Source of the DNA: Emticicia sp. CRIBPO
GTDB lineage: Bacteria > Bacteroidota > Bacteroidia > Cytophagales > Spirosomataceae
Direction of reading: 5' to 3'
Assembly (NCBI RefSeq): GCF_009905725.1
Contig: NZ_JAAAKV010000006.1
Span: forward strand, 186,001 to 250,000
Length of the DNA: 64,000 nucleotides
Numbering within the stretch: position 1 is the stretch's first letter; each line of letters opens with the position of its first letter. Below the pieces are notes generated by a model, which saw nothing but the letters and a program-made list of their open reading frames with translations, was not told where the DNA came from and ran no database searches. Below are positions 5,168 to 32,463 of this stretch, piece by piece. Made by a program: the position numbers and the translations under genes.

Positions 5168-5408
5168 CACTCAATAACACCTTGAATTAGTAAACCTCCA
5201 CTCAACACTTAAATTTAAATCTCACTCAATAGCCAAATGTTTTAAAAAAGTAAATTTTTCACTCAATAATGTAAACCTCTAAAATAGTAAACCTTTCACT
5301 CAATACTTAAAATCAATTTTCACTCAATAGTCTTAATCTTTTTAAAAAAAATACGCTTTTTCACTCAGTAATGTAATTCTTAATAATAAGTAAATTTTCC
5401 ACTCAATA
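5168..5408 (-). repeat. CACTCAATA repeat array with a higher-order period
   Basis: Eight copies of CACTCAATA (one with C, one with G replacing a base) start at 5168, 5199, 5223, 5260, 5297, 5321, 5362 and 5400. The gaps run 31, 24, 37, 37, 24, 41 and 38, giving a superunit of about 92-102 bases (5168, 5260, 5362). Units 1, 4 and 7 share GTAAAC/GTAAAT words; units 2 and 5 are short and begin CTTAAA. The region is very A+T-rich and has no plausible gene. It sits between a minus-strand gene and its terminator, so its RNA would carry repeated UAUUGAGUG. The function is unknown. Confidence 0.85.
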
Positions 5409-29836: not shown

Positions 29837-29867
29837 TTTGGCTGTTGTTATTTTTTCAATACTTTTG
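29837..29867 (+). promoter_or_regulatory. Promoter of tRNA-His
   Basis: TTTG (29837-29840) and TACTTTTG (29860-29867) are separated by 19 bases, an exact fit to the Bacteroidota consensus TTTG-N19-21-TAnnTTTG. Transcription should begin near 29874. Confidence 0.85.
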
Positions 29868-29883
29868 CAGTCCCAATCAAGAT

Positions 29884-29958
29884 GGAGATTGTAGCTCAGT
29901 TGGTTAGAGCATCGGTTTGTGGTACCGAGGGTCGTGGGTTCGAGCCCCATCAGTCTCC
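29884..29958 (+). tRNA. tRNA-His (GTG)
   Basis: GAGATTG (29885-29891) pairs with CAGTCTC (29951-29957), the extra G at -1 is encoded (29884) opposite C73 at 29958, as is usual for tRNA-His. D-arm GCTCAGTTGGTTAGAGC, anticodon GTG in TCGGTTTGTGGTACCGA and T-arm GTGGGTTCGAGCCCCAT are intact. CCA is not encoded. A terminator hairpin follows directly. Confidence 0.96.
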
Positions 29959-29963
29959 CGGAA

Positions 29964-29991
29964 AGCGTGTCAGCAATGGCACGCTTTTTTG
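29964..29991 (+). terminator. Terminator of tRNA-His
   Basis: GCGTGTC (29965-29971) pairs with GGCACGC (29978-29984, one T-G pair), followed by six T. The same hairpin recurs after each tRNA-like copy downstream. Confidence 0.85.
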
Positions 29992-30060
29992 TTTTATGAC
30001 TGTTTAGCTATTGGCAGTTAGATTTTAGTGGCTGCTCAGACGAAAAATACCTAATAACCG

Positions 30061-30138
30061 TGGTTGGTTAGAGCATCGGTTTGTGGTACCGAGGGTCGGG
30101 GTGGTGCGACACTCGCTTCGAGCCCCCATCCCTCTCCC
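30061..30138 (+). pseudogene. tRNA-His-like segment 1
   Basis: Contains TTGGTTAGAGC and the intact anticodon arm TCGGTTTGTGGTACCGA, but no matching acceptor 5' strand or D-stem partner. An insertion gives GGGGTGGTGCGAC before a T-loop-like GCTTCGAGCCCCC. It cannot fold as a normal tRNA and no promoter box was seen upstream. Confidence 0.7.
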
Positions 30139-30239
30139 GGAAAGCGTGTCAGCAACGACACGCTTTTTTGTTTTATGACTGTTTAGCTATTGGCAGTTAG
30201 ATTTTAGTGGCTGCTCAGACGAAAAATACCTAATAACCG

Positions 30240-30317
30240 TGGTTGGTTAGAGCATCGGTTTGTGGTACCGAGGGTCGGGGTGGTGCGACACTCGCTTCGA
30301 ACCCCCATCCCTCTCCC
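30240..30317 (+). pseudogene. tRNA-His-like segment 2
   Basis: Almost identical to segment 1 (one G to A change in the T-arm region). It is followed by its own terminator hairpin. Same defects as segment 1. Confidence 0.7.
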
Positions 30318-30418
30318 GGAAAGCGTGTCAGCAATGGCACGCTTTTTTGTTTTATGACTGTTTAGCTATTAGCAGTTAGATTTTAGTGGCTGCTCAGACG
30401 AAAAATACCTAATAACCG

Positions 30419-30496
30419 TGGTTGGTTAGAGCATCGGTTTGTGTTACCGAGGGGCTGGCGGTGCGACGAATCGCTTCGAGCCCCCATCCCTCTTCC
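30419..30496 (+). pseudogene. tRNA-His-like segment 3, most degenerate
   Basis: The anticodon arm reads TGTGTTACC rather than TGTGGTACC, and the insertion has diverged (GGCGGTGCGACGAATCGC). Its terminator copy (GCGTTTC) has lost a base pair. Confidence 0.65.
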
Positions 30497-30540
30497 AAAA
30501 GCGTTTCAGCAATGGCACGCTTTTTTGTTTTTTGGCTGTT

Positions 30541-30885
30541 TAGCTATTGGCTGGCAGCTTATTTCATGCACCGGCACCAAGTTAAATAATAAGAGTTGGC
30601 TTTAAAGTTTCTGGTGGAGTTGTCCCGTAGGGACAAAATATTTGTAAAAAGAATTTCTAAAATATGATTTCCCTCCCGGCGGCCCCGCCCGGCTTGACCA
30701 CCAGGTCAGACGGAAATTAAACATATCCTGTTGAAGAATATGAAATATCTGCCACTGCCCCCACCTCCTTTAATTAATAAGCCCCGGCCTTCAGGACACG
30801 GGGCATTACACATTTATAATCATAAGCGACAAGGCCTCACAACCCTGAAAAATAAAGCTTGCAATCAAAAGCTAATGGCTCTCAC
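30541..30885. other. Gene-free stretch with a GTCCC palindrome
   Basis: No gene was found. TGTCCCGTAGGGACA at 30621-30635 is a short palindrome (six-base arms) of the kind dispersed in many Bacteroidota genomes. CCCGGCGGCCCC-rich text at 30670-30690 and a weak GCCCCG...CGGGGC hairpin near 30780-30805 may be the end of the YceI transcript. Confidence 0.5.
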
Positions 30886-32312: not shown

Positions 32313-32410
32313 ACATCAAAAGCAGATGGCCGTGTGTATCTGCAAAAATAAAAATCAGGTATTTTGAAAGCCCCCGGTAATGGGATCTGACAAACATTCA
32401 ATCATTGATT

Positions 32411-32463
32411 CATTCTATCATTCTATCATTCATCCATTCTATCATTCATCCATTCTATCATTG
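32411..32463. repeat. CATTC-type tandem repeat upstream of rimO
   Basis: A 16-base unit CATTCTATCATTCATC occurs about three times (with a partial CATTCTAT before it), then CATTG and two AACATTCCCCC words at 32464-32500. The stretch holds no gene. It lies 90-140 bases before rimO. Confidence 0.75.

Follow-up and report, generated by a model that had tools for sequence, protein, structure and literature searches.

Among described systems, the one closest in layout to the locus analysed here is the E. coli tyrT locus, where direct repeats of 178 nt stand directly after tyrV. These repeats overlap the end of the tRNA gene by 19 nt and are spaced by 178 and 178 nt, with an additional 66% copy at 297, and a unit there carries annotations for an RNA (RttR) and for a small protein gene (tpr). 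Small dispersed repeats of cyanobacteria, reportedly described by Elhai and colleagues in 2008, are said to be very small (~21-27 nt), mobile and nested in other repeats; they differ in size, in sequence and in phylum from the hairpin described below. REP elements are given in PMC3733652 as sequences of 20-40 bp with a terminal GTAG or CGTC tag. Additionally, PMC2800124 reports that in sponge mitochondria small hairpins are repeated both between genes and in the rRNA gene rnl, and that nad genes have hairpin inserts that cause no frame shift; these elements are organellar and of other sequences and sizes.

Here we analysed a stretch of 64,000 nt (the window) in which an intact tRNA-His gene is followed by an array of this kind. 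Its tandem units of ~178 nt also hold the 3' end of the upstream tRNA and have nearly the period of the tyrV repeats, while differing from them in the tRNA involved and in the RttR and tpr annotated in the E. coli unit. A search of the literature, covering titles and abstract openings and with most subscription papers outside it, found no description of the hairpin or of these arrays. Our data suggest that the array is probably not a set of new RNAs but a burial ground for a very small mobile palindrome.

Structure of the array

The first-pass annotation had reported three direct repeats after a functional tRNA-His, and the spacing of 179, 179 and 178 bases proved to be exact. TRF gave a period of 179, 3.4 copies, 94% matches and a score of 1084, far above chance, and together with the exact spacing this score rules out a chance origin of the repeats. 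In the register of the repeat comparison, unit 2 is 97% and unit 3 is 91% identical to unit 1, and every unit keeps 39 nt of tRNA-His (97%, 97% and 87% identical in units 1, 2 and 3, respectively). The features of the array are as follows.

29860..29867, + strand: promoter-like box TACTTTTG of tRNA-His, the sole TAnnTTTG in 29840-30570
29885..29959, + strand: intact tRNA-His(GTG), called by ARAGORN and Rfam (63.9 bits)
29960..29989, + strand: tRNA-His terminator (terminator scan)
30063..30138, + strand: unit 1, truncated tRNA-His copy from D-loop to 3' acceptor strand (repeat comparison)
30103..30116, + strand: hairpin insert of unit 1, GGTGCGACACTCGC (pattern scan, occupied/empty comparison)
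30139..30168, + strand: terminator copy of unit 1, with a G-U pair changed to A-U (sequence, terminator scan)
30242..30317, + strand: unit 2, truncated tRNA-His copy (repeat comparison)
30282..30295, + strand: hairpin insert of unit 2, GGTGCGACACTCGC (pattern scan, occupied/empty comparison)
30318..30347, + strand: terminator copy of unit 2 (terminator scan)
30421..30496, + strand: unit 3, the most diverged truncated tRNA-His copy (repeat comparison)
30460..30474, + strand: hairpin insert of unit 3, GGTGCGACGAATCGC, an exact fit to the family-wide pattern (pattern scans)
30498..30527, + strand: last terminator copy, one pair lost (repeat comparison, 89%)

Each unit runs from the D-loop through the 3' D strand, the anticodon arm, the insert, the T-loop and the 3' acceptor strand to a terminator copy, and the copied stretch continues beyond the terminator into the spacer. 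The anticodon arm, as annotated, is present in each unit within the 39 nt of tRNA-His. The acceptor 5' strand and the D-stem had both been described as lost; what is missing is the 5' strand of each, and the units still have the D-loop together with the D-stem's 3' strand. Likewise, the roughly 15 bases said to be gained before the T-arm are there (net +14) but lie inside it, after its 5' strand and ahead of the T-loop TTCGA (units 1 and 2 aligned, unit 3 by eye). The reported terminators were recovered as a tRNA-His terminator copy in each unit. One of them, that of unit 1 (assigned to unit 2 in the earlier numbering), reads GTGTC...GACAC vs the original GTGTC...GGCAC, a one-sided G-U to A-U change that preserves pairing as had been noted, and the final copy (GTTTC...GGCAC) has lost a pair, again as noted, and receives no call in the terminator scan.

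The statement that the units contain no promoter box also stood, as the only TAnnTTTG in 29840-30570 is the box upstream of tRNA-His, which we take to be of the Bacteroidota TAnnTTTG promoter type; furthermore, promoter scans found no sigma-70-like or TAnnTTTG site within the units. Neither ARAGORN nor Rfam called any unit as a tRNA gene, 29885-29959 being the only call in the region, and at the curated cut-off the array matched no Rfam family other than the tRNA of the upstream gene. Two matches to the Rhizobiales Atu_C9 family on the opposite strand (24-25 bits vs a cut-off of 40) were taken as chance. The units fold weakly better than their shuffles (z of -0.7 to -1.6), in a test of low power given that the intact tRNA itself scores -1.4. 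Elsewhere in the window, tandem repeats lie at 5188-5408 (98-base unit, 2.2 copies) and at 32395-32462 (units of 8/16/24 bases between a DUF998 gene and a radical SAM/TRAM protein gene), and no relation to the array was seen for either of them.

The insert is a recurrent hairpin

The extra bases of the units are a recurrent hairpin, GGTGCGACnnnTCGC, set between T-stem and T-loop, a point absent from the first-pass annotation. The T-arm of the intact tRNA-His reads GGTCGTGGG-TTCGAGCC, that of units 1 and 2 GGTCGGGGTGGTGCGACACTCGC-TTCGAGCC or -TTCGAACC, and that of unit 3 GGCTGGCGGTGCGACGAATCGC-TTCGAGCC, the inserted words pairing as GCGA/TCGC around a short loop. Within the 64-kb window the hairpin pattern has three matches, all of them inside the array.

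The family-wide form of the hairpin is GGTNCGRCGNNYCGN, and both stem pairs tested covary strongly. For this analysis we took sites matching CGGTNCGRCGNNYCGNTT, in which both stem pairs are left free. Among the matches listed (150 sites), and with pair counts that ignore the shared ancestry of sites, the outer pair was Watson-Crick in 129 (shuffles: mean 63, maximum 82) and the inner pair in 137 (shuffles: mean 83, maximum 101). Over the 60 distinct words the outer pair was found in 41 and the inner one in 49, against shuffle maxima of 34 and 45. Since both pairs covary above the shuffles, it is the hairpin itself that is kept.

Our scans also identified the hairpin as a dispersed repeat of the bacterial family of the host (Lacihabitans, Jiulongibacter and relatives), a family whose name we take to be Spirosomaceae. 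The 23-base pattern GGYGRTGCGRCRNNYCGNTTCGA, which includes the tRNA T-loop letters TTCGA and was searched with up to 1 mismatch, gave 35 sites in 23 of 150 family genomes vs 2 sites for the reversed control. By reading, 27 of these 35 sites fall within partial copies of tRNA-His, Val, Asp, Arg(CCT), Arg(CCG), Glu and Thr(GGT), the other 8 being in protein genes or ambiguous. The pattern GGTGCGACGNNTCGC, which leaves out the tRNA letters TTCGA and was searched as an exact match, gave 141 sites in 52/150 genomes vs 25 reversed-control sites, so that about one sixth of its sites are expected by chance, and some of the in-gene copies are therefore probably chance matches. ARAGORN placed a tRNA within 300 nt of 22 of the 136 distinct GGTGCGACGNNTCGC sites and of 11 of the 56 flank groups (one site per group, at a loose threshold), where ~0.4% is expected by chance (36 tRNAs in 6.06 Mb); among these 22, the sites near Pro and Phe were not seen inside tRNA copies. 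This pattern added Ala, Arg(ACG) and Thr(TGT), for which the copy lies upstream of the intact gene and has its insert in the anticodon loop or D-loop. Overall, ten tRNA species were found to have partial copies with the hairpin.

With the 23-base pattern we also scanned 194 genomes of the order; the 177 belonging to other families gave 1 site (with 1 mismatch) vs 3 control sites, which is not above chance. Among the matches listed in an all-species scan with the same pattern, most appeared to be chance matches in GC-rich genomes, and Runella and Emticicia records matched as well. A second hairpin type, built around GGAANGCC, often followed by TCCG and variable in its stems, was recognised by eye at L034, L067, L094, L099, L256, L287, L289 and L315; it too occupies tRNA loops and in some cases adjoins the first type. 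In addition, locus L051 (G001:C123) is a tandem repeat of ~130 bases whose units hold GGGGCGACCTTTCGC and a terminator-like hairpin, and no tRNA was found nearby.

Copies after tRNA-His and in the genome of the window

The locus was searched against 59 genomes, including its own. The same-genus genome G001 (Lacihabitans) has two hairpin-bearing units after tRNA-His, 139 bases apart; elsewhere in the genus, G004 has one copy, G005 two, and G006 two plus a more degenerate one seen by eye, and none was found after tRNA-His in G002, G003, G007, G008 and G009. Copies after tRNA-His are therefore present in 5 of 10 genus genomes, from 0 to 3 per genome and with differing unit lengths, and outside the genus in 1 of 20 further tRNA-His loci examined (G023, Jiulongibacter). 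In all 6 of the 30 examined genomes that have tRNA-His copies, at least one of these copies carries the hairpin. As judged by eye, its orientation is opposite in G004, G005 and G023, and in G004 and G005 it lies within the acceptor strand.

The earlier reading of the repeats as an amplified tRNA fragment is supported by the unit identities (97%/91%) and by the 0 to 3 copies of other unit lengths in relatives. The comparison with related genomes that had been proposed as a check shows turnover of the copies, which comes close to the outcome then named as speaking against a functional RNA: a copy number that goes from none to three within one genus argues against a conserved RNA function.

In the genome of the window (G000), where tRNA-His is the sole gene of its kind found, adjacent partial copies occur only at tRNA-His (three) and tRNA-Val(TAC) among 35 distinct tRNA sequences. 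For these 35 sequences no partial copy free of an insert was found, in a scan (BLAST E up to 0.01, flanks of ~0.9-1.5 kb) that short or very degenerate copies may escape. The truncated tRNA-Val(TAC) copy (L329) contains a different hairpin, CGGAAGGCCGCCCCG, and its own terminator; it lies ~160 nt after the intact gene, and the spacer is repeated. An orphan partial tRNA-Asp copy with the hairpin of the window stands at a contig start (G000:C8:1-260; L049, L069), together with a run of CCCAACCAGGCGTT-like repeats, and the intact tRNA-Asp is on C15.

Insertion sites of the hairpin

To describe the sites we paired occupied copies with the empty tRNA nearby, taking those whose 7-nt and 8-nt flanks match that tRNA with at most 1 mismatch, a set in which unit 3 of the window does not fall. 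In the resulting 21 pairs, which are not all independent because several come from one array or one tRNA, the net gain was +15 in 12, +16 in 6 and +14 in 3, units 1 and 2 of the window being two of the last three. T-loop inserts occur in His, Asp, Arg(CCG, CCT), Glu, Thr(GGT) and Val, D-loop inserts in Thr(TGT), Asp and Arg(ACG), and an anticodon-loop insert in Ala. Where the T- or D-loop is occupied, the hairpin immediately precedes the loop's TT and replaces one to three tRNA bases. Since the bases on either side of an insert match the tRNA of its own host, the inserts of different tRNA species and of different loops would represent separate events. Copies on the downstream side of the tRNA gene retain its 3' end, many of them together with the terminator; those on the upstream side, seen for Ala, Arg(ACG), Thr(TGT) and Asp, retain its 5' end.

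The hairpin was also found within reading frames and within DNA palindromes, in both orientations. In the in-frame copies the 15 bases read GATxR (for example at L093, L255 and L291), and a frame of at least 120 codons, counting any of the six frames and including chance frames, spans 20 of 56 groups. Inverted doublets of the hairpin were observed in other genera. At L103, L266, L267 and L277, for example, the hairpin lies between the convergent arms of a longer palindrome; out of 56 groups, these 4 are the ones in which 9 or more of 10 flank bases pair. Over the flank groups, the mean best pairing of ten flank bases was 5.77 vs 5.13 for permuted partners (0/500 permutations reached the observed value), in a test that left out 1 of 136 sites (flank <40 nt or N) and takes no account of local composition. 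When flanks displaced within these loci and flank shuffles served as controls, the effect was smaller and persisted: the mean was 5.75 vs 5.11-5.30 for displaced flanks (sites with <150 nt of flank left out), at least 7 of 10 bases were paired in 16/57 flank groups vs 3 to 8 in the displaced controls, and 0/500 shuffles reached the observed mean. A modest preference for palindrome tips is present, and it is not general.

We also looked at Y1 transposase genes. A structure-true copy of the hairpin was found at 3 of 54 Y1 loci (not all of them distinct genes), all three among the 4 loci examined in G083, an element-rich genome of another genus with 28 sites. The other 50 loci, including all those examined from the genus of the window, gave no structure-true copy, and the 12 genus loci gave 3 one-mismatch matches, none with the stem pairs. 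These data are suggestive of a link to Y1 transposases for the genus of G083 only. In G083 the hairpin lies inside the Y1 frame at L421, 44 nt after it at L414, and on both sides of the Y1 gene at L436:1000-2720, within an array of GCCCCGCTAGGGGC palindromes; a third hairpin copy at L436 seems to be interrupted by a nested 15-base insert.

Discussion

Taken from sequence comparison, our preferred reading, to which we assign a probability of roughly 0.6, is that the array consists of inert partial tandem duplicates of tRNA-His that host a 15-base palindromic mobile element and were later amplified. The array, its recurrence in relatives, the sites, the covariation in the stem and the turnover of copies are observed, and it is from these that mobility, the sequence of steps and the lack of function are deduced. 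The units would be non-coding and 5'-truncated, each duplicating the 3' portion of tRNA-His along with terminator and spacer, and the 15-base palindrome would insert next to the loops of palindromes, the palindrome at this array being the T-arm. A partial tandem duplication would have left tRNA-His intact and made a redundant truncated copy. The hairpin would then have entered this copy at the T-loop, replacing one or two bases; the entry site is that seen in the occupied/empty pairs, and the direction and mechanism are part of the proposal. Unequal recombination may afterwards have multiplied the unit, as the identities of 97% vs 91% suggest. An insertion into tRNA-His itself should be lethal because it is the only such gene found in the genome, and if so only inserts in redundant copies would survive. 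The inherited terminators are predicted to end transcription within each unit.

Copy and insert could also have arisen together, if the hairpin joined the loop of a folded tRNA, either as transcript or as DNA left single-stranded when a fork stalls, and the joined molecule was copied back beside the parent gene. The hairpin is present in at least one copy in each of the 6 genomes with tRNA-His copies (the most degenerate last copies of G006 and G023 being unscored), the insert sites are tRNA loops, and downstream copies keep the 3' end, often with the terminator, as upstream copies keep the 5' end; additionally, both kinds of copies in the window's genome (His and Val) and the orphan tRNA-Asp carry inserts. 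Since the scan of that genome found no partial copy free of an insert, one event fits at least as well as two steps. Nevertheless, we consider this course of events unlikely: the insert lies inside the copy and not at its edge, the copied stretch in the window passes the terminator into the spacer, and the inserts in reading frames and palindromes, in both orientations, indicate that a tRNA transcript is not needed. A broader proposal, that within one family the 15-base hairpin, which would be among the smallest mobile DNAs proposed, inserts precisely at the loops of folded nucleic acids (tRNA T-, D- and anticodon loops, and terminator tips) and also makes truncated tRNA copies beside the parent gene during its own spread, is one we hold tentatively and with more doubt than belief.

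The retention of a terminator in every unit, together with the terminator change that preserves pairing, might instead point to transcription that reads through from the tRNA-His promoter and yields tRNA-like small RNAs, by analogy with RttR of the E. coli tyrT operon, an RNA annotated in 178-nt repeats after tyrV. Such a function is rather improbable here, given units with no TAnnTTTG box and no Rfam match at the curated cut-off, a terminator-like hairpin between promoter and units, copies absent from 5 of 10 genus genomes and unit lengths that differ. Integrases commonly use tRNA T-loops and the attachment scars that they leave repeat the tRNA 3' end, so the copies could be thought of as scars of integrative elements targeting the 3' end of tRNA-His. 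We regard this origin as very improbable, as the copies reach 5' to the D-loop and take in terminator and spacer, others lie upstream of tRNAs with inserts in the D-loop, and no integrase was found among the 10 proteins tested at 24.4-36.2 kb.

With REP elements and REPINs the hairpin shares a paired, covarying stem, short length, insertion inside other palindromes and in genes and, in some genomes each, a copy number of several to many and the presence of inverted doublets. It differs from them in that the window-type hairpin sits in the loops of tRNA copies, and in that its 15-nt core starts with (C)GGT and has no terminal GTAG or CGTC tag as given in PMC3733652. A link to Y1 genes, seen at 3/54 loci and in one genome, is not a regular one. 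The hairpin works like a REP-type or small dispersed repeat and falls outside the REP size and tag of that source.

Arrays of tandem tRNA fragments have so far looked like isolated curiosities, as in the case of E. coli tyrT. They are now seen beside ten tRNA species of one family, with a common tiny palindrome placed almost to the base, which provides a natural series of occupied and empty sites for studying the movement of very small palindromes. This recurrence also offers a candidate reason for the build-up of broken tRNA copies beside tRNA genes.
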